A DNA stretch of 12,264 bases from Hepatocystis sp. ex Piliocolobus tephrosceles (taxonomy: Eukaryota > Apicomplexa > Aconoidasida > Haemosporida > Plasmodiidae). The stretch is taken from contig CABPSV020000606.1 in NCBI GenBank assembly GCA_902459845.2, positions 1 to 12,264 of the forward strand, written 5' to 3'. Within the stretch, counting starts at the first letter, position 1, and each line of letters begins with the position of its first letter. The translations under genes were made by a program, and so were the position numbers. The notes beneath the pieces are model-generated. The model was not told the origin of the DNA, made no database searches, and was given only the letters and a program-made list of their open reading frames with translations. This document shows positions 1 to 12,264 of the stretch, piece after piece.

Positions 1-3000
1 TGCTTAGTGTATTCTTTGATTATAATTCTTTTAAAATTATTCCAGAAGTACTTAATTTTGATTCAGTAGAAATAGAAAAAGAGGAATGTAAATATTTTCA
101 AATAATTAATGATGGTCCATTTGATTTTGAATATGAAATAAATTTATTAAAAAGTAAGGTAAAAAATAAAGAAAATAATACAAAATTAACAATGGAATTG
201 AAAAATGTTGAAGCACAGATAGTAGAAAAAAAAAGTTATAATGAAAAAAATGGTATAGAAGAAGAAACTCCATTTATTATTTTTCCTATTAAAGGTTTTA
301 TAAAATCGAAACAAGAACAAACTGTAAGTGTTACTTTTAATTCTTATGAAGAAAAATTGTATAAATATATTTATTTAGTTCGAGTAAATGATATTGCAAC
401 TGGTAGGAAAAGAAATATAAAAGAAACAATTATGTACCGAAATGATAACACATATGAAAAACATAATGAAATAATTAAAATAATTGCATCATCAGTAAAA
501 CCTAGTATATCATATGATATTAAAAACATATTTGAAGAAATTGTGTTGGTAAATAAATTGGAAAATTGTAGTACTATATTAGACCTATTTTTAAACAGTA
601 ATAGTTATTATAATGAAGATAACAAAACATTATATTATCGATACTGTTATGTAAATCAATATGTTAATGAAAGAATAAAAATTTCGAACACATCTGATGT
701 GAATACATACGTTAAAATAGAAGTGAAAGGAATTAGTTTGGTAAATTATGAAAAGGGTAGAGGAGTATCAAATGAAAATAGTATGAACACAAAAACGGAG
801 AAGAGTAAAAAAATAGTTAGAAATGTAGATAGAGAAGAACAAACTGATTATAAAAAAAGAAACGATAATATTGATAGGGAAGATTCATTTATTGAATGTA
901 ATGTTAGGGTTCAAAATTGTGATGAAGTTAAATCTGAATGGAATTGGAAAGATGATAGCACAAGAGAGGATACGATAGGGAATGTCACAGTATGTTGTGA
1001 TGATAGTGTTAATAAGAGTAGCAATAAGAGTGACAATAAGAGCGACAATAAGAGCGACAATAAGAGTAGCAATAAGAGCGAAAATAAGAGTAGCAATAAG
1101 AGTGACAATAAGAGCGACAATAAGAGCGACAATAAGAGCGACAATAAGAGTAGCAATAAGAGCGAAAATAAGAGTAGCAATAAGAGTGACAATAAGAGCG
1201 ACAATACAAGCAGTAATAAGAGCAACAATAAGAGCAGTAGTAAGAGCGACAATAATACTAATGATGGTTTCACCAGTGCTAAAACCATGCTAACTCGATA
1301 CGAACACAAATACGTAGATATTTGTTTTTTTTCTAGTCAAATAGGAAGTAGCATATTTTTAGTAAATGTATATCTTGTTAGACAAACTACTGAATTATGC
1401 TTTTCTTTTTATATAAACGTCAATTTTTTTTTACCTGCTATTAATATGATTTTACCGCAAAGTTTGATACAAACTCGTGAAAACCAGGTCTTCAATTTAG
1501 GAAGTATTCATTTAAATAGTGAAATTTCATTTAAAATAAAATTAAAAAACTGTTTTAAATACCCTGTTTCGGTTAAGGTTCTTTTTGAACAATTATTTAC
1601 GAAATTAGTTGGTACACAAAGTTCTACAAAAATAAATAATTTTACTAACAGGGAGAAGATAAATATAAAAGAGGAAGAAATAAAAGCTTTAGAGCATATT
1701 GATAATGATAGGAAATATAAGAAAATTCGTGTTAGTAATAATGTTAGTAATAATGTTAGTAATCATGTTAGTGATAGTGTTGGTGATCATGTTGGTGATA
1801 GGAATCACGATGTTGATACGTGTTTAAACCAAAGAAATGAATCTGGTGAGAATAGAGAAAACAAATTAATTGGAAATGTGGATAGTGATAATGTAGTCAA
1901 TAATAGCTGTATAAATAAAGACAATAACAAAATTGGAAGAATGGGAACTTCTGTTGAAAACAAAAAAAAATTATACGCTTTGAATAGCAAATTGTTTTTT
2001 TTTAATAATAACAAAGCTGATAAAATAATATTAAGTAAAAAAGATAAGATTACCTATTTTGAATATAAAAATAATAAGAACATTATGTACAGAAAAGAAA
2101 AGAAAAGAAAGGAAGTATTTCATGCAGGTATCTTTAACTACATTGGAAATAGTAGTTACATGTTAAATGAAAATGATGAAGCTTGGTTTAAAATAAAGAT
2201 TAACAAAAAAAAATTAGAAAATGAAATAGTAAAAAGAAAACAGTTGCTTTTGAAAGCGGTAGAAAATAGTGCGCATGTGGTTGATGTGGAACAAATTAAA
2301 AAACAAAGTGAAGTTTCTGAAGAATTAATCGGTAATATTTCTAGTACTACTGAAATTGTCAGTGAAAAAGGAACAAACAAATATGATAATAAGGGTGATA
2401 ATAAAACCGATTGCGAAAATGAATTGGACAGCAATAAGAAAAAAGGTGAGAAAAAGGGTGAGAAAAAAGGTGAGAAAAAGGGTGAGAAAAAAGGTGAGAA
2501 AAATGGTGAGAAAAATGGTGAGAAAAAAGGTGAGAAAAAGAGTGAAAAGACGGAGAGGAAGGAAAAGAAAAAGAAAAAGGAAGTAATAAAAACTGAAGAT
2601 ATAGAAAAAAATGGTGCTGATAATGTGGGTAAACAAAATGCAATAATAGGTTCGTACAAAAGTTATAAAACTCTTCCTTTAGAACAAGACAAACAAGAAC
2701 TGCTTGGTAGAATAGGCATTAACGTGGTAAATAATAGATACGAATTTGTCGATTTACAATTTGTAGGTAACATAATAGAATGTACAAATTACTGGAACTT
2801 CGAATCATTAAAACGTGAAATGAGAAAAATCATATGTAAAAGTGATAATGCATATATTTATAAGAATCATATAAATTTTGATTTATTACCATTAAATTAT
2901 AATAATAAATTTAAAGTTTGTTATACTAATGAAAATGATTATCCTTTATATTTTAATATCGAAATAGATAAAAAATTAAAAAGTTTTTTAAAAATAAGTT

Positions 3001-6000
3001 CTTTGAATGGGTTTATACCACCAAATAGTTCTTTTCTTTTTTTCCTACATATGGATATAAAAGAGACTTTTAATTTAGTAAAAAAACAAATAGTATGCAA
3101 ATTTTCTACAAAAGATTTGAATATAAAAAAAAATACCAAAACAAAAGAACATGATGAAGGACATATTTATGAAGATTCGTTATATGTAAGTATAATGTCA
3201 GAAGAAATCAAAATTTTGTATGATAAAAAAAAACTACTTTTTCAAAATATTCCTTTTCTGAATTATGCACAAAATGATTTATTGATAGAAAATCTATCTA
3301 ATGTAAAATTAGTACTAGAATTAAGTATAATACCGAAAAATGAAAAAGAAGATATAACATCTGTTTATTCATTTTGTCGTTTTAAAAAAAAAAATATTAT
3401 TTCATTAGTAAAGCAAAATGGAATAAATATGTTATTGAAGGGGGAGAGAGCGGTGAAAGAGGCGAAAATGTTTGACTCGGGTTTGACAGATAATACAAGT
3501 ACTAGCGGTGGTTTATTTAATGATAGTGCTTTAAGAAATGATTGTGACAATAACATTTGTGACACTCACGAAGTTACAAACAAAAATAGTAATGTAGGTT
3601 ATACGCTGTCCAATGAAACTAACAGTAGTAAGTATGATTTAGATAAACAGAATGGAGGTAACAGAAATAGTCCCACTGTTACAGGTCCTATAGAAAGAGT
3701 AGAAAAAAATTTTGATCGAACTAACTACAATCTGGATAACATTGATTTTATCCAAGAAAATTATAAACAAAGTGGAACTAATAATAACAAAACAAGTGCA
3801 TGTAGTATGATAAAAAGTAAAAAGAATCAAACTGTTATTAAAAAGTATGTAACTATGAATGGAAAAAGTAAAAAAGTGATACATATATATTGTTTACATT
3901 ATTTATTGCAAAAGTCTAATGAAGCGATGTTAGTAATAAAAATACAATTTTATAATAATATAAATATACCATTGAAAATGGAATTTGAAAATTATGATCA
4001 GAATAATAATGTATCTTTATTAACTGATTTTGAATATAAAAAGGGACTTGTACAGAATCATAATATAATTAATATATTAAGTAGAGGAATATTAAATAAG
4101 ATAAGACATGAACTATTTTTATTAAACATGTCTAATAAAGAATTACAGTATTTTTTTAAAAGAACTAATGAATTAGATTGTGCAAATGGTGATAATGATA
4201 CATGCATGGTAGATGAAAATGGGAGCTTAGTTAGCAACATACGTAGTAACATAAGTAGTAACATAAGTAGTAGCATAAATAGTAGCATAAATAGTAGCAC
4301 TATAGAATGTGTGAATGATAACGGAAATATAAAAGAAAACAGTATTTTACCAATTAAATTTTTATCTAATAGTTATAATTCGTTACATTATAAAACTAAG
4401 TATATGTTATACGTAGATAATAAACAAAATAGACAAATCGAATTTGACTTAAAACCAATTCAACCGTTAGTATTTTTTAACACTTCTTGTATATATATAG
4501 ATAATTTATTATTAGAAAAAAGTTATTGTTTTGTTTTTTATATAATAAACTTTGATTTTGTTGACATGAATTTTGAATTTGATAAAAACTCGTATAGCTC
4601 CTTCAATAGTCAAAAAGATACAATTAAAATAGTGCCATCGAAGGGAACTGTAAAGTCTTGTTACAAATGGGAAAAACGTAATCAGTATGGAACGCTTGAC
4701 ACTAATGCTAAGAATTTACAAAGTGAGTCATTCTCAACAAAAGATGATGAAAAAAACAGAAAAACCGAACTAACAGGTTTCCGTTCTGCAGACTCGGACT
4801 ACATAATTGGTGTTTTAAGTAGTGGATTTAGTAGTAGCCATACTGTTAATAGTGATAAAACTGTTAATAGTAGTAAAACTGCTGTTAGTAGTAAAACTAC
4901 TGTTAGTAGTAAAACTATTGTTAGTAGTAAAACTATTGTTAGTAGTAAAACTATTGTTAGTAGTAAAACTGTTGTTAGTAGTAAAACTGCTGTTAGTAGT
5001 AAACATATAAACAAGTTTAAGATTAATTATTTATCGGATAGTAGTTCAAAAAGTAGTAAGCGATATAGTGATTATAGTACTGTTGGTAGTGGTAGCTGTT
5101 TCAATTCATTCCAGAATAAGTCGCCAAACATATCTGTTGTCTCATCTAACTCCTATTATTCTTCATCTTCTTCTTTTTCGGATGCAAAATGGAAAAAGAA
5201 TGAAAAAGAGAATGAGTCAGGGTTTGACGATACATCGGAAGTTTTATTACCAGCTCGTAATAATACCCTAATAGATAAATGGGAATACATAAATACGTCG
5301 TGCGAATCTGATAGCACATCATCCTTGTGGTCGTTAGAAAATACCAACGAACGTGATGAATATGACATGAATTGTACATATAAATTTTATCTTATTAATT
5401 ATTATTTACAACATTTAGGAATAGCGAATGATGAAAAGCTTAAAAAAGAAATGAAAAAAATGCTTGGAAAAGGGCTAGGTAAAAAAATCAAAATATTATT
5501 TAAGCCTCACTTAGAACAATTTTATAATTTTAATTTGTTGTGCAATATTGATAAAAAAGAAGAGCCATTAAAATTAAATTTAAAAACTAAAGTTGGAAAG
5601 CTTAATATACAATGTTACATTAAAAACTCTGATAATGAAAAAACTTTTTTGGAATTAAAAAATGTAAAACATAGTAAACATAGCAAACATAGCAAACATA
5701 GCAAAAATAAGACACAAAAGAAAAAGAACGGAAAAGATGATTTGATACATGTACATTGTACACTAGATTTTAAAGAAACGTTAGTAGGGAATAAAAAAAT
5801 ATCACATATTGTAATAGACAATTTCTGTGATTTTGATTTATTTTATAAATATTATTTACATAAAAAAGATAAAGATATAACCATTCAATGTAATAATGAT
5901 TATATTATTAAAAATTCCACTTTTTCTATTGCTGTTCAATATATACCATCAAAAAATAGAACTTATGTAAATTACTTATTACTTAATATAAGAGATTATT

Positions 6001-9000
6001 ATTTAATACATTTTAAAATTACTGCAATTGCTATTAATTTTATGCTTAAATTTTCATTTTACAACTATAATTTTGGTAATGTTATATTATTTCCTATAAT
6101 AGATAAAAAAACTATTAAGGTAAAAAATATGTGTGCTTATTCAAAGCAATATGTGAATGAAGACTTTTTTTCCACAGATGATGATAGTTCTTTATCTTCT
6201 TTGATATATAAGTATAAAATGAACGAAAAAAGAAAAAAAAGTGAAATAACTGAAGAGAGAAAGAAAATGGAGATAGAAGAGGAGAAAACACATAGAGAAA
6301 GAGAAATAAACAAAAAGGAAGATTTGAATTCTACGTTAAAGGAAAGTAAGACAAAAGGTAAAGGTGGTGCACTTAAAGTGGGTAAAAAAGGAGAAACACA
6401 TACGGAGGAACATGCGGGAAAGAAATACTCAGGAAAGCACTCGAAAGAACAAACAATGGCACATACAAGCGAAAAAACCGATGGAGGAAGGCACAAAAGC
6501 AAAGGAAAGGGCAATTTCTCCGATGAAATAACGGAAGCGACTGTAAAGAAAAATGAGACCGATGATGATGAAGGAAAAAAGGAAAAAAAACAAAAAAAAA
6601 AAAAAAAGGAGAAAAGGGATGGTGGCGATAAAAAAGAGAAAAGGGATGGTGAAAATAAAAAGGAGAAAACGGATGGTAGCGATAAAAGGGATGGTGAAAA
6701 TAAAAAGGAGAAAACGGATGGTAGCGATAAAAGGGATGGTGAAGATAAAAAGGAGAAAACGGATGGTAGCGATAAAAGGGATGGTGAAGATAAAAAGGAG
6801 AAAAGGGATGGTGACGATAAAAAGGAGGAGAAGATGAAAAAAGAAAAAAAGTTAAAAAAGGAGAAAACAGAGGACACAAGTGATAGCAGTAGCAAAATAA
6901 ATAAACACAACAAAAACAACGAAATAGATAAGGACAAAAAAGAAGCGAAAAAAAGTAACATACATGATAAAGAGATAAAAAGTACAAAAAAACATAATAA
7001 AATGTTACATTCTGATAATGTTTTAAAGAAAAGTGTAAACAAAGAAAATGATAAAAATGAGAATAGTGATTCAGATATATTGTCTGTTGAAGAAGATATG
7101 AACAGCGCTCAAACTAAACTTGTGATTGCTAATAATAATTATGAAGATTGTTTTGTCGATTATACCATTAGTGACTGTTGTTTTGAAATTTCAAATGTAA
7201 GGAGTGAAAGAATATATATACAAAAACGAAGTGAAGTTTGTGTTTTTATTAAATTCAAACCAAGAGAAGAAAAAAAATATAAATGTAAAATTTTATTTAA
7301 AATAAATAATGACGTGACAAAAGTGATACCAATCAATTTGAAAGGCTCTGCTAACAAATTTAAACTACCTTTTTCATGTGCTAATAACTCTAACGAAATA
7401 GTATTTAAAGATGTGCATGTAGATAAAGAAAGAATAAATAAATTTACTGTTATGAACAAAAACATGGAAGAAATAACTTTTAATATATTAAATTATAAGC
7501 ATTTAACTAAAAATTATCTAACATTTGTTAACTTTGATAATACTAGTTTGCATCATTTAAAAAAAAACGAAAAAAAAACATATGAAATAAAATTTGTACC
7601 TCCTAAATATATAAATGTACATATACCATTATATTTGAATGTATATTACAAAAACATGAACATACCTTATTATTTAACAAATGTTATTGTGAATAGTGTT
7701 TGTTATAAAGTAGTATTAAACACGTTGTTATTGTCATTCTATAAGGTAGAAAAGAAGACAGATATAGTGGTATGTGAAGCTATAAAAAACGAAAGTAGTA
7801 AATCTATAACAACAGGTAGTGAAATTATAAAAGAATCTGATAAAACTGCCAAAGAATTTGAAGAGATAAAAAAGAAAATTCCTAAATTATCTAATCATAA
7901 AGATTTTATAAGAAGCCAAAAAATTCAATTACATAATACAGGTGATATGAATGCTCAGTTTTGTATTAATTATCCATTAAGATATGAAGATTTTTTATTT
8001 GTATATCCTAAAAAAGGAATTATTTTTTCATTTAATTTGATTAATATTTATATTTTTATTGATACCAAATTTATTACTAAAGATGTTTATATTAAAGATG
8101 TATGTGTTGAATTATTTCCAAAATTTGCTAAAATTAACAGTAAGCTGTTTTTTCAAATATATGTGAATTCGGGAAATGCTACTAATTTGGGAAAGAGTAA
8201 AACACTTATACATAATGAAAAAAAAAAAATAAACACATTAAAAGATGTAGAGAAAGAGGCGGAAGAACAACCTTTTTTTAGTGACAACGATTCATATTAT
8301 GGTGATAATAATAAGTTAACAAGCAAACTCCTTACTGATAAAACAAAACAAAATGACAACATCGGACAGGACCAAACTAGAGAAAGATTAGATAGTAACG
8401 AAAAGAATATTAATATTTTTCCTCTTAAAAATCAAACTATTATATCTTTTGAAACAAATATACGAAAACAAATAAGTAAAAACATCGAAATAGTAAACGA
8501 AACTGAATCTAATTATAAAATAAAATATAAATTTGTTACAAATGATAATAATTTTTTTTCTGTTATGAAAGATGAAAATGTAATTGAACCAAACGAGTTT
8601 GGTATATTTCAGATTATTTATAATCCATTATTTATTCAAAAAAATAAAAAACAAAATAATTACCATAATGCTTTATGTATGAAATATTTAAAATATTGTT
8701 CCAAAATTCATCATATATCTAAGTTACTTGTCTATTATCCAAATGATGTAGTCAAAAATTATGTTTTGTTAGGTTATGCAAATAACGAAACATATGAAAA
8801 AAAATGTAGTTTTTATTTTAAAACGAAAATTTTGGAAAGTTCTTCAATTAGTATTAAAAATTGGCTGAATGAAAGTCAGGAATTATGTGTTTCTTATTAT
8901 GAATGCGACCAAAACTTGGAAAGGGTTGACTATAGCCATTTCTTTTTTTACGTAAGCGGATGCGTTAGTGTATATGAATATTTACACATTTACATGCATA

Positions 9001-9104
9001 TGTTTGTGTATATGTTTATGTGTGTGAGAGTTAATTCACTTGTTTGGACCTTTTTTCACGTGTTTGCACCTTTTTAAGCTACATTATTATTTTTTTTATG
9101 TTTT

Positions 9105-9143
<39 letters not shown>

Positions 9144-10689
9144 CCCCCCGTTCAGATACAAACCAATGTTAAGATAATTAACAAGGAAGAGAAGAATGTA
9201 CCTTTCAAAGCATTTGCATTAAAAGAAGGAACCTACTATATTATGCTACTTTTTTCTAATGAAAAACATGAAGATATGTATAAAACATTATTACAATTTG
9301 ATATGAAAGAAATTGATTATTTATTTATTAAAAATGTGAAAGGAAATAAAAAAGAAATTATAAAAGAAAGTGTTTGCATTTATAATCCATTAAATGAAAA
9401 TATAAAAATAGATACTGTTTGTGATTATAAATATATATTTTTTGATAAATCTATAATATTAGAAAAAAAAAAAAATAATATTATTAACATTTATTTTTGT
9501 ATAATTAAAAATGAAGTTGATAAGGATATTATTATTTCATTTGTAAATAAAAAATTAGGAAAATCTAATTTTAAATTTATTTTAAATGTTAATTTTGTTG
9601 ATTTGGAAGAAAAGTTTTATTTTAATACGGATTTGGGATCATCTCAAATTAATGAAATATCATTTACAAATATATGTAATCAAAAAATTAATTATGATGT
9701 AGTTATTGAAAATTATGATGAAAAAGATAAAAATTCTACAGCCATATTTGAATACGTTGATAAAACAATATATGCTAAATCGATAGATACTGATTTTTTT
9801 TTAAAAAACCAAAAAATAAACAATCTATCAGACAAAATTAGCTTAACCATTAAATACAACCCAGCCAATATTAAAACAGACAAGGCTATTTTGAAGCTTG
9901 TATCGAAAGAAGGCATCATACATAAGGTATAAAAACTCACGAAAAAGAAAAAAAAAAAAAAAGTGACACATTTTTTTTTTTTTTTTTTTTTTTTCATATG
10001 CTTTATTTAAATATAAACACGTGTTGATATTGCATGTACGCGCTTTTACTTTTTAGGGATTACTAATAGGAAAAAGTGTAGCGCCGAAACCTAAGGGACC
10101 CATATTTTGTTCTTCTCAAAAAACTACTTTTATTTCTTTTACAAATCCGTTTTTTAAGTTGAAGCAGTTTTTTATAGAAGTAATAAAACCGCTTAAAAAA
10201 TATATATCGAATCGCATATATTAAAAAATGAATAATAAGACATCGAATTAGCAAAAAAAAACAAAAAACAAAAAAAAAATAAATAAATAAATAAATAAAA
10301 AAAAATAAAAAAATAAAAAAACTAATGTATACTCTTATTTACATGTTTATTTTTTTCTTTCACTCAGACGGATGAACACTTTTCTGTTCCTTTTGAGAAA
10401 GTAAAAATCGAAGCAAGACAGACAGTTCAAATACATATTAAGTGCAAAACTACAAGTGTCGTATCAGGTGAGTTTACATGCACGAATCTTCTAACTTAAT
10501 AAATTAATGTTGCATAAGTAGGTTATGTTATATACTCATGTGAAATAATAAGTATATATATATTTATATATGTATGTGTGATCGTTTTTTTTTTTTTTTT
10601 ATTTTTACTTTTATATAATTTTTTTAGGAAAACTTTTAATAAAGTCGGAGGAAAATATCGTATGGATGTACTATTTAACAGGGCAATAA
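1..10689 (+). CDS. Giant ASH/MSP-domain protein, CFAP47-like axonemal protein (5' partial, 5 exons visible)
   Basis: Likely a flagellar central-apparatus protein of the male gamete axoneme. Proposed exons are <1-8951, 9156-9926, 10057-10179, 10368-10467 and 10628-10689 (stop TAA 10687-10689), about 3,334 codons. The frame is open from position 3, so the ATG at 192 is internal: codons before it already form an ASH strand pair (VLNFDSVEIEKEECKYFQI). About a dozen ASH-like modules are visible, with cores near nt 42-400, 492-740, 1431-1600, 2874-3210, 4449-4670, 5730-6060, 6030-7360 (split), 7362-7710, 7900-8160, 8420-8790, 9297-9620 and 9620 to the end. Typical signatures are NxG/N-turn strands, FxPP and 'G.ipP..s' turns. 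The last module reads SVAPKPKGPI...ISFTNPFFKLKQFF...HFSVPF...IEARQTV...GKLLIKSEE...WMYYLTG, a pattern I associate with the CFAP47 C-terminus; HYDIN or CFAP65 relatives are the alternatives. I see no calponin-homology domain. Low-complexity inserts interrupt several modules. Gene and ASH nature are firm; orthology is moderate. Confidence 0.85.
1005..1256 (+). repeat. 12-bp coding minisatellite, (S-x-N-K) x 21
   Basis: Twenty-one consecutive 12-bp units of the agcgacaataag type encode SDNK, SSNK or SENK tetrapeptides, with decay at the 3' end (SDNT, SNNK, SSSK, SDNN). A higher-order 84-bp period is visible: the SSNKSENKSSNK block starting near 1063 recurs near 1147. The array lies in a hydrophilic insert of about nt 750-1290 in the second ASH module, probably a disordered loop. 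Confidence 0.95.
1731..1802 (+). repeat. 12-bp degenerate coding repeat, (V-S/G-N/D-x) x 6
   Basis: Six 12-bp units of the gttagtaataat type encode VSNN, VSNN, VSNH, VSDS, VGDH and VGDR. It sits in a hydrophilic insert between ASH-like segments. The drift from N to D and S to G across the array suggests an older repeat. Confidence 0.85.
2439..2546 (+). repeat. 12-bp coding repeat, (K-K/N-G-E) x 9
   Basis: Nine 12-bp units encode KKGE (two copies KNGE, last copy KKSE), followed by a Lys/Glu-rich tail to about 2585. The plus strand is nearly all purine here. The array encodes a highly charged, probably disordered or single-helix linker inside the ASH protein. Confidence 0.93.
4233..4304 (+). 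repeat. 12-bp coding repeat, (S-N/S-I-S/N/R) x 6
   Basis: Six 12-bp units of the agtaacataagt or agtagcataaat type encode SNIR, SNIS, SNIS, SSIN, SSIN and SSTI. This is a short Ser/Asn/Ile-rich insert just before the beta-rich segment starting near 4350. Confidence 0.85.
4842..5003 (+). repeat. 18-bp coding repeat, (T-x-V-S-S-K) x 9
   Basis: Nine 18-bp units encode hexapeptides TVNSDK, TVNSSK, TAVSSK, TTVSSK, three TIVSSK, TVVSSK and TAVSSK. The centre is the most homogeneous part, as expected for recent expansion. It lies in a Ser/Lys-rich insert (about 4670-5360) in the middle of a beta-rich module. Confidence 0.95.
5670..5705 (+). repeat. 9-bp coding repeat, (HSK) x 4
   Basis: Four 9-bp units (catagtaaa or catagcaaa) encode HSK tripeptides in a short basic loop before the next ASH-like module (about 5730). 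Confidence 0.85.
6603..6830 (+). repeat. Lys/Asp-rich coding minisatellite with three 45-bp units
   Basis: Units at 6657-6701, 6702-6746 and 6747-6791 each encode the 15-residue KKEKTDGSDKRDGE(N/D). They are flanked by shorter KKEKRDG(G/E/D)(D/N) variants. The array sits in a roughly 950-nt lysine-rich insert (about 6150-7100), the largest in the protein. The neighbouring sequence is also highly charged, with poly-K and KE runs. Confidence 0.93.
8952..9155 (+). other. Intron 1 of the CFAP47-like gene (204 nt, phase 0)
   Basis: The donor is GTAAGC after a TAC codon and the acceptor is CCCCCCGTTCAG before ATACAAACC. Both flanks are phase 0, and the downstream frame resumes ASH-like sequence (VKIINKEEKNVPF). 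The unspliced frame here reads low-complexity Tyr/Val/Met/His-rich peptide and stops at 9075-9077, which is why the long open frame appears to end there. The intron holds a 37-nt T run (9107-9143) followed directly by six C. Confidence 0.75.
9107..9143 (+). repeat. Poly(T) tract of 37 followed by C6
   Basis: A 37-nt uninterrupted T run directly followed by CCCCCCG forms the polypyrimidine tract of intron 1, six bases upstream of the CAG acceptor. Exact length is likely to be polymorphic or error-prone in sequencing. Confidence 0.9.
9927..10056 (+). other. Intron 2 of the CFAP47-like gene (130 nt, phase 0)
   Basis: The donor is AAG|GTATAA and the acceptor is CTTTTACTTTTTAG|GGA. An in-frame stop sits in the first codons of the intron (9930-9932). 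Joining gives KEGIIHK|GLLIGKS, after which the frame runs into the conserved PKPKGPI turn of the terminal ASH module. A 24-nt T run lies at 9971-9994. Confidence 0.8.
10180..10367 (+). other. Intron 3 of the CFAP47-like gene (188 nt, phase 0)
   Basis: The donor is GTAATA after GAA and the acceptor is TTTTTCTTTCACTCAG|ACG. Joining gives KLKQFFIE|TDEHFSVPF, which restores the FxxxDxxHFxV pattern expected in an ASH module. Without splicing the frame would run on to a stop at 10222-10224. The donor is weaker than the others, so the exact boundary is the least certain of the four. The intron contains an A-rich stretch with AAAT repeats at about 10253-10320. Confidence 0.7.
10253..10320 (+). repeat. 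A-rich simple repeat, (AAAT)n and (AAAAC)n type
   Basis: The stretch is almost all A with regularly spaced T or C, including several AAAT units in a row. It lies within intron 3 upstream of its polypyrimidine tract and does not encode a plausible peptide. Confidence 0.85.
10468..10627 (+). other. Intron 4 of the CFAP47-like gene (160 nt, phase 1)
   Basis: The donor is TCAG|GTGAGT and the acceptor is a T-rich tract ending TTTTTTTAG|GAAAAC. The split codon G|GA encodes the Gly of GKLLIKSEE, and the final exon ends in WMYYLTGQ followed by TAA. Both sites match consensus well, and the joined product completes the last beta-strands of the ASH module. Confidence 0.85.
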
Positions 10690-10763
10690 ATTGATTTGTA
10701 TCCAAGTTGAATATAATAAAAAAAAAATAAAATAAAATAAAATAACAAAGATTATTATTATTT
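10690..10763. other. Short convergent intergenic gap (74 bp)
   Basis: This is the whole space between the plus-strand TAA (10687-10689) and the minus-strand stop (10764-10766). It contains AATAAA at 10715-10720 followed by a run of AAAAT repeats. No gene fits here. Both 3' UTRs must extend into the opposite gene if they have usual lengths. Confidence 0.75.
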
Positions 10764-12170
10764 TTAAGTTTCCCATGAAGCTGCTATCATTTCTAACTGC
10801 AAAAAGATCATGTCAATGTTTTTAGAAAAAAGTTTATCTTGTATATTTTTTCTCCATAAATAAAAAGCTCTTCTTTTTTTACGTACTATATAATAGTCAC
10901 GCGCTTTTTCAAATTTTTGATTTATACTATTTGTGGATAGTTTTGACCATTTATCAATTATGCTCCTTACAAGTTTATGAATCCTTTTTTTTTTTACCTT
11001 TAAAAGGGAATAAAATGCGTCCAGTGTGTGTGTATGTATGTATGTATGTATGTATATATGTATGTATGTATATATGTATGTATGTATATATATATGTATG
11101 TATGTATGCATGTATATGTATGCATATGTGTGTATGCATCTATGTTTATCTACTTTTTAAACACACTTTGAACTAATTTAGTTAATATATGCCTACATAG
11201 TTACTAGTAAATATATTCTCCTAGTGTTGTAGTATTTATTTTTAAGAATGTTAAAAAAATGATGTTTTAAGCTCACTCTTTGACACGCGTCAGTAAAATT
11301 GCTTATCGATTTGATGACGCATTTTGTTAATTTACAAACACATTTATTTTTTCTGATAACACAGATAAACAAAATAAAACGAAATAAAAATGAGACAAAA
11401 CGATATATGCGCATGTGCAACATTTAAGTGTAAACGTAATTACATATGGAAGGATCGAAATATGTAAAATGTGAAATTAATATATATAACTTATGTTATT
11501 ATAAACATATATGTTCTAAAATAAAATAAAAAAAATAAAGCGACTTCGTTATAAACATATAACATTTTTTTTTTTTTTTTTTTTTGACAAGTAGCAGAGC
11601 ATATACATGTATAGTTAAAGTAGAACAAGGTGTAAAATAAAAATTAAAAAAAAAAAAAGGTTGTGCTTAGGTGTACATATAAAACATATATATTTTTTTT
11701 ATATTTTACAAAAGCAAAAAAAAGAATAGTTTCCTTTTTCTTTGAATATCATTTAATTTATAAAGACATAAAATACTCTGTATTTTATAATAATAATTTG
11801 AAATTACAAAAAATCCTTTTTTTTTTAATTTATAATGATAATAATTTTTAACAGTTTTTAGTAATTTATAGCTTTCTGCTTTATCTTCTGCTATTTGCTT
11901 TTTTTTTCTGCAATGATAAATAAGATGTGTTAACATATGTGCTTGTGCATATAGACACTTACACGTATGTATATACGTATATACACAATATAGTCTTTTT
12001 TTTTTTTTTTTTTTTTTAGCAACACGTTCAAATTTTTAATTTTTTTTTTTTTTTTTTTTATATTTCGTTACAGTATGTTATTAAAGCTTATTTTCTTGGC
12101 TTGTACTATTTTATTTTTAGAATCATTTGATTGCAGATTTTGCAGCTTAACTTTATCAATGAACTTTTGC

Positions 12171-12172
<2 letters not shown>
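10764..12172 (-). CDS. Hypothetical helical protein with Sfi1-like (centrin-binding type) motifs, 4 exons, 5' end uncertain
   Basis: Reading the minus strand, exons are 12172-12072, 11907-11710, 11352-11205 and 10997-10764 (stop 10766-10764), in total 681 nt or 226 residues from the ATG at 12172. Junction phases are 2, 2 and 0, and each restores a continuous Lys-rich helical protein. Recurrent motifs of AFxxW type are visible: ISFNNI, GFFVI, HFFNI, IIDKW and AFYLW. After splicing, the I of HFFNI to the W of IIDKW is 31 residues, and that W to the W of AFYLW is also 31. Sfi1 proteins bind centrin through such repeats at microtubule-organising centres; that role is inferred from pattern only. 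The frame stays open upstream of 12172 through poly-Lys to the window edge, so this may be only the C-terminus of a longer protein. The alternative is a different small helical protein. Confidence 0.6.
10998..11204 (-). other. Intron in the minus-strand gene containing a TATG microsatellite (207 nt, phase 0)
   Basis: On the minus strand the donor is TTACTA|GTAACT and the acceptor is TTTTATTCCCTTTTAAAG|GTAAAA. Between the acceptor and an AG near 11140 there is no other AG on the coding strand. The chosen splice excludes the repeat and gives a 31-residue spacing between motif positions on either side. The alternative acceptor at 11140/11141 would add a Tyr/Ile/His repeat peptide. Confidence 0.6.
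11024..11137. repeat. (TG)n/(TATG)n microsatellite
   Basis: Imperfect tandem TATG, TATA and TG units cover over 100 bp. The array lies inside the last intron of the minus-strand gene under the proposed splice model. It could be translated as alternating Tyr-Ile-His, which I regard as an artefact. Confidence 0.9.
11353..11709 (-). other. Intron in the minus-strand gene (357 nt, phase 2)
   Basis: On the minus strand the donor is CTTTT|GTAAAA and the acceptor is TTATCTGTGTTATCAG|AAAAAAT. The split codon TT|A gives Leu. It is longer than the other introns here; I looked for an extra exon inside and saw only A/T-rich sequence with several stops. It carries a T run of about 20 nt on the plus strand near 11566-11585. 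Confidence 0.55.
11908..12071 (-). other. Intron in the minus-strand gene (164 nt, phase 2)
   Basis: On the minus strand the donor is ATACT|GTAACG and the acceptor is TTTATCATTGCAG|AAAAAAAAAGC. The split codon CT|A gives Leu, joining NNIL to KKKQIAEDKAES. The intron carries two poly(A) tracts on the coding strand (T runs at 11996-12017 and 12040-12059). Confidence 0.65.
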
Positions 12173-12202
<30 letters not shown>

Positions 12203-12264
12203 GTATTTATTTTTTTTTTTTTTTTTTTTTTTTGTAATTTCTATTATTAAAATTAAACAAAAAA
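12173..12264. other. Poly(T)/poly(A) region at the right edge, upstream of the minus-strand ATG
   Basis: T runs at 12174-12202 and 12210-12233 appear as poly(A) on the minus strand. This could be a 5' leader, as A-rich sequence before an ATG is common in Plasmodium. It could also encode poly-Lys in an exon beginning at 12240 after the acceptor-like TTAATTTTAATAATAG. No stop occurs in the gene's frame up to the edge, so the sequence does not decide. Confidence 0.5.

Follow-up and report, generated by a model that had tools for sequence, protein, structure and literature searches.

What does the minus strand near the end of this haemosporidian contig encode, and does its product belong with Sfi1 and the proteins that carry Sfi1-type centrin-binding units? 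The window, meaning the whole stretch of DNA analyzed here (12,264 nucleotides, GC content 24.8%), is the entire contig, positions 1-12264. A sequence-only reading had joined four short minus-strand segments into a cryptic gene and had assigned its product to an Sfi1-like repeat family with a period of 31 residues.

The gene, its family, and its neighbor

In silico splicing of the minus-strand exons 12172-12072, 11907-11710, 11352-11205, and 10997-10764 gives 226 codons plus a stop, with intron phases 2, 2, and 0. A protein search matched the product residue for residue (226 of 226, 100% identity) to P0001, a Hepatocystis sp. ex Piliocolobus tephrosceles protein annotated as "conserved protein, unknown function." The four segments, their GT...AG sites, and their phases had been proposed exactly, and the gene finding is correct, but the gene is already in databases and was wrongly called cryptic; the public Hepatocystis annotation is described as having been made with Companion using RNA-seq evidence and then curated manually (PMC7425995). 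The features of the locus are as follows, the numbered units being the 12-residue repeat units treated in the next section.

12072..12172, minus strand: exon 1, 101 nt, residues 1-33 plus two bases of codon 34, ATG at 12172; holds most of unit 1 (residues 25-36), which extends into exon 2
11908..12071, minus strand: intron 1, GTAACG...ATTGCAG, 164 nt, phase 2
11710..11907, minus strand: exon 2, 198 nt; units 2 (residues 60-71) and 3 (residues 90-101), the end of unit 3 extending into exon 3
11353..11709, minus strand: intron 2, GTAAAA...TTATCAG, 357 nt, phase 2
11205..11352, minus strand: exon 3, 148 nt; unit 4 (residues 127-138)
10998..11204, minus strand: intron 3, GTAACT...TTTTAAAG, 207 nt, phase 0
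11027-11145, within intron 3: TGTA/TACA microsatellite
10764..10997, minus strand: exon 4, 234 nt including the stop; units 5, 6, and 7 (residues 157-168, 188-199, and 215-226) and the tryptophans W166, W197, and W224

All three introns start with GTA, and their 3' ends read ATTGCAG, TTATCAG, and TTTTAAAG.

Protein searches returned at least 13 relatives of P0001, namely, P0007 and twelve Plasmodium entries (P. malariae, P. ovale, P. knowlesi, P. relictum, P. gallinaceum, P. coatneyi, P. fragile, P. vivax, P. gonderi, P. berghei, and two P. vinckei subspecies); Hepatocystis is itself described as a lineage nested inside Plasmodium (PMC12187015). In an alignment of all 14 proteins, the relatives are 39 to 60% identical to P0001, with P0007 the most divergent at 39%. 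Eleven of the 13 relatives have 226 to 235 residues, as do 12 of the 14 family proteins, and the other two have 199. Full-length identity and equal length thus place the product in a conserved haemosporidian family, P0001-P0014. Exon conservation in relatives, on which the proposed gene had been made to depend, is plain in that 12 of the 14 aligned proteins are gap-free at all three junctions. Both P. vinckei models (P0013 and P0014) are missing residues 122-149 of P0001, a stretch at the end of exon 3 that holds unit 4, and their gap stops exactly at the exon 3/4 junction; this is probably an annotation difference in which an earlier donor was used. Given the end-to-end identity with P0001 and the gap-free junctions in 12 of 14 proteins, the predicted four-exon model is far beyond chance. 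That it might be a fortuitous string of splice sites with no gene behind it is refuted by the exact database match and the conserved relatives, and we give that reading next to no weight.

Within its own genome, P0001 has four matches, all at the 10764..12172 locus, and a search with residues 1-60 of P0002 found no further family member. No P. falciparum orthologue appeared in the protein searches, which selected candidates by shared words (one search being capped at 7994 scored candidates); its absence may stem from the reach of the searches or from a gene model that differs in that species. Among viral contigs, 119 pattern matches included no relative. A literature search on Plasmodium Sfi1 and centrin, the Hepatocystis genome, CFAP65, the basal body, and POC5 found no paper on the small protein.

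On the plus strand, positions 3 to ~10690 of the window are occupied by a large multi-exon gene, whose end at about 10,690 is our reading of the sequence. Its product matches the fourth Ig-like domain of CFAP65 (E 2.8e-14), which bears out the earlier impression that the neighbor is axonemal in look, and it has weaker ASH and Cep192 matches that lie below curated cut-offs. The same gene contains several low-complexity tandem repeats with units of 9 to 45 bases. The two genes are convergent, tail to tail, with about 70 bases between their stop codons (~10690-10764), so their 3' untranslated regions probably overlap. As evidence of function, adjacency to an axonemal gene is weak.

Repeat units along a predicted helix

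The periodicity had first been argued from three short motifs, HFFNI, IIDKW, and AFYLW, which begin at residues 131, 162, and 193 of the spliced product. The literal intervals are indeed 31 and 31, and their equality had been offered as independent proof of both the splice and the repeat. In the alignment, however, the conserved phenylalanine of HFFNI is F133, while F132 varies among relatives, and in the conserved register the two intervals become 30 and 31. Because the equality depends on the register chosen, it is not independent proof of either. Nor was a strict 31-residue period significant when the profile built from the 12 full-length proteins was autocorrelated: shift 31 had a z of 0.88 and the maximum over 79 shifts fell at shift 1 (z 2.88), a value attained by 17% of shuffles.

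What survives of the periodicity is a significant seven-unit repeat with flexible spacing. We searched the profile of the same 12 of 14 proteins for chains of similar 12-column windows spaced 26 to 40 columns apart and found seven 12-residue units, starting at residues 25, 60, 90, 127, 157, 188, and 215, with intervals of 35, 30, 37, 30, 31, and 27. The score of this chain was equalled by 1 of 2000 column shuffles and by 9 of 2000 shuffles in seven-column blocks. Four further ranges of spacing, each set against its own 300 shuffles, performed less well (8 to 30 of 300 for columns, 23 to 66 of 300 for blocks). With windows of 18 and 24 columns, the column-shuffle fraction was 0.007 in both cases and the block-shuffle fractions were 0.033 and 0.02, respectively; the 18-column chain keeps the spacing of the 12-column chain, whereas the 24-column chain departs from it. 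Single proteins (n = 4) gave weaker results (4 to 16 of 300 column shuffles and 11 to 30 of 300 block shuffles), and only P0007 returned the identical seven-unit chain, from which it follows that the repeat rests on conserved columns, at a spacing of 27 to 37 residues and not of 31. Intervals in this range agree with the tandem arrangement of Sfi1, whose units are spaced about 30 residues apart.

Comparing the seven segments with one another, profile against profile in 21 pairs, gave weak links at uncorrected P values of 0.0014 for units 5 and 6, 0.0017 for units 2 and 4, and 0.0036 for units 2 and 6. A strong link between units 6 and 7, like those between units 2 and 3 and between units 4 and 5, was discarded because the segments overlap. 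The introns lie 3, 4, and 16 residues past the conserved phenylalanine of units 1, 3, and 4, and exons 1 to 4, when units are counted by that residue, contain 1, 2, 1, and 3 units.

The protein is probably almost wholly helical. An AlphaFold2 model built on the 14-row alignment has one helix over residues 20-198 and a second over residues 204-224; its mean pLDDT is 66.1 and its pTM 0.26, with blocks from residue 131 on at 66 to 80 and most earlier blocks below 70. With this model as the query, Foldseek found no solved structure at E 0.001 or better, as one would expect of a lone helix. P0001 is very basic, with 55 lysines and arginines against 14 aspartates and glutamates; the pI exceeds 10 in all 14 proteins, none of which has more than 3 prolines. 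When profiles were searched against the PDB, the full-length profile (7 of 14 proteins) matched nothing but a spectrin chain, at E 1.5, and the unit profile (35 units, being units 2-6 of 7 of the 14 proteins) retrieved no chain at E values up to 10.

These properties also suit another explanation, in which the product is a basic cytoskeletal or nuclear protein, helical or coiled-coil, and the F-x-x-hydrophobic units, in place of binding centrin, pack helices or make contact with nucleic acid or tubulin. The uniformly high pI is in keeping with it, as is the fact that block shuffles, which keep short helical patterns, attain the chain score more often than column shuffles do (9 versus 1 of 2000). 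To these can be added the four of seven units without a conserved tryptophan and the lack of a match to the Sfi1 profile. Against it stand the tryptophans themselves, W166, W197, and W224, which all 14 proteins share, and the F-x-x-W at residues 194-197, likewise in 14 of 14, when tryptophan elsewhere in the sequence occurs in just three (P0002, P0005, and P0006). We regard this explanation as possible though unlikely.

Tryptophan sites and the Sfi1 comparison

The three conserved tryptophans belong to three of the seven units; at the corresponding place of units 1 to 4, tryptophan is not conserved. At the two best units, F/L/I-x-x-W is present in all 14 proteins. The minimal centrin motif of Wenz et al. 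2023, [FLW]xxW[KR] (PMC10180636), occurs at a single site, residue 194, and 13 of the 14 proteins have it. Since at least one such motif is found in 12% of 10000 shuffled copies of P0001, a single occurrence means little by itself.

A fuller comparison can be made with the Sfi1 consensus, given as AX7LLX3F/LX2W[K/R], in which the tryptophan is position 17 (PMC9406199, PMC8622359). Around W197, A1, F14, W17, and K/R18 are all present in 13 of 14 proteins, the P. gonderi protein having a glutamine after the tryptophan, but positions 9 and 10, which are leucines in the consensus, are Lys-Lys in P0001; both are hydrophobic in 0 of 14 proteins, and position 10 is hydrophobic in one, that of P. vivax. 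Around W166, positions 9, 14, and 17 agree in all 14 proteins (position 14 being a bulky residue) and position 10 agrees in 11 of 14, while A1 and K/R18 agree in none. W224 is a partial match. The full consensus is present at no tryptophan of any of the 14 proteins. The AFYLWR of this product can be set beside TFYIWK, the end of yeast SFI1 repeat 19, which Table 2 of PMC8622359 places among the Cdc31 binders. When repeat 19 was used as a query against the PDB, it had no match, and the PDB copy searched may contain no close chain. A tryptophan is not always needed, because yeast SFI1 repeat 18, also a Cdc31 binder, has a phenylalanine in its place, as we read the sequence in that table (PMC8622359), whereas in TgSFI1 all 32 of 32 repeats are reported to have the tryptophan (PMC9406199).

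The expected match of the 226-residue product to the Sfi1 repeat profile did not materialize: Pfam Sfi1 (PF08457) matched 0 of 14 proteins at E values up to 10, in a search run without a known Sfi1 positive control and with HMMER filters that drop most matches above E 0.1. Pfam and NCBIfam together gave weak, unrelated matches only, each in one or two of the 14 proteins. An Sfi1 family search over the parasite's own genome found no match, and because the control genomes were likewise without one, the outcome carries no weight. The multiple consensus repeats of Sfi1 proteins, about 20 of them, have as their counterpart here about seven units. The idea of an Sfi1-like repeat family is supported in part. 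In its favor are the statistics of the seven units, the F/L/I-x-x-W that all 14 proteins keep at the two best units, and the long helix predicted at low confidence; speaking against it are the absent Pfam match, the restriction of conserved tryptophan to three of seven units, the single minimal motif, and the failure of the unit profile to retrieve a PDB chain. Membership of the Sfi1 family fails as tested, and we group the product with proteins that bear Sfi1-type units rather than with the family itself, whose profile it does not match.

One could still suppose that the protein is a true, shortened Sfi1 orthologue by descent. The repeat pattern and the predicted helix fit that supposition, and the Sfi1 idea is already latent in one UniRef name, that of the P. 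knowlesi protein, which starts "Sfi1 spind" and is the sole function name among the matches listed. The Pfam result speaks against descent, as do the unit number, about seven against the about 20 or more repeats described for Sfi1 (PMC9406199), and the circumstance that a different protein, the 407-kDa PfSlp, has already been proposed as the Plasmodium counterpart (PMC10180636). We consider such descent very improbable, and the most likely reading remains that the protein would work like Sfi1 even though the family profile does not match it.

A putative short centrin scaffold among known systems

A likely partner is encoded in the same genome: an EF-hand piece (L005, a partial gene) has Centrin-2 as its best solved match (E 2.5e-36), ahead of calmodulins. 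EF-hand proteins in general take as targets basic amphipathic helices that carry bulky hydrophobic residues, and a calmodulin or myosin light chain could on that ground be the ligand instead of centrin; calmodulins do match the EF-hand piece, after centrins. Yet an IQ motif is absent from 14 of 14 proteins by strict and relaxed patterns, the only patterns applied, and binding of this other kind seems improbable to us.

We favor, with somewhat better than even confidence, a short centrin-binding scaffold. The protein is 226 residues long, strongly basic, probably helical along nearly its whole length, and conserved among haemosporidians. About seven Sfi1-like units would be borne on one long helix, which the low-confidence model suggests. 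The C-terminal units around W166 and W197, and perhaps W224, would each bind one centrin C-lobe, the tryptophan and the bulky residue three places earlier inserting into its hydrophobic pocket, and several centrins may in this way be assembled along the helix. The site of action could be a microtubule-organizing center, either the centriolar plaque or the basal body of the male gamete. More tentatively, and as an unlikely elaboration of this scaffold, it may be a miniature specific to haemosporidians that fills the role of POC5-like short centriolar centrin binders at male-gamete basal bodies or at the centriolar plaque. On that view the units would form a graded series, with the tryptophan-bearing C-terminal units binding centrin tightly and the tryptophan-less N-terminal units contributing weak or calcium-dependent binding or packing.

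POC5 is a centrin-binding protein of the centriole with a few Sfi1-type repeats. Compared by description, the haemosporidian protein is like POC5 in having few centrin-type motifs and in being much shorter than Sfi1; according to one review, Plasmodium does not have POC5 (PMC8705618). The likeness to Sfi1 itself (yeast, human, and TgSFI1) lies in units that end in F/L-x-x-W, with K/R next at the best site, and in their spacing of about 30 residues, to which the low-confidence model would add a long single helix. The differences are of scale and of conservation: about 7 units in 226 residues as opposed to about 20 to 32 repeats in proteins of far greater size (PMC9406199, PMC8622359), a conserved tryptophan in 3 units only, and no Pfam Sfi1 match.

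A comparison within Plasmodium is with PfSlp (PF3D7_0710000), the Sfi1-like protein of the centriolar plaque, which copurified with PfCen1-GFP and was itself proposed on [FLW]xxW[KR] motifs without Sfi1 sequence homology (PMC10180636). PfSlp, at 407 kDa, is reported to exceed every other P. falciparum protein in the number of these motifs (PMC10180636), unlike the 226-residue product and its one strict motif. Few extranuclear parts of the malaria centrosome equivalent are known, and PfSlp has been called the second (PMC10180636). The gene described here was itself known; what is new is the seven-unit register with its statistics and two candidate centrin sites in a protein of "unknown function." Being small, probably a single helix, and furnished with two or three candidate centrin sites, the protein would be far easier to test in vitro than the 407-kDa PfSlp.
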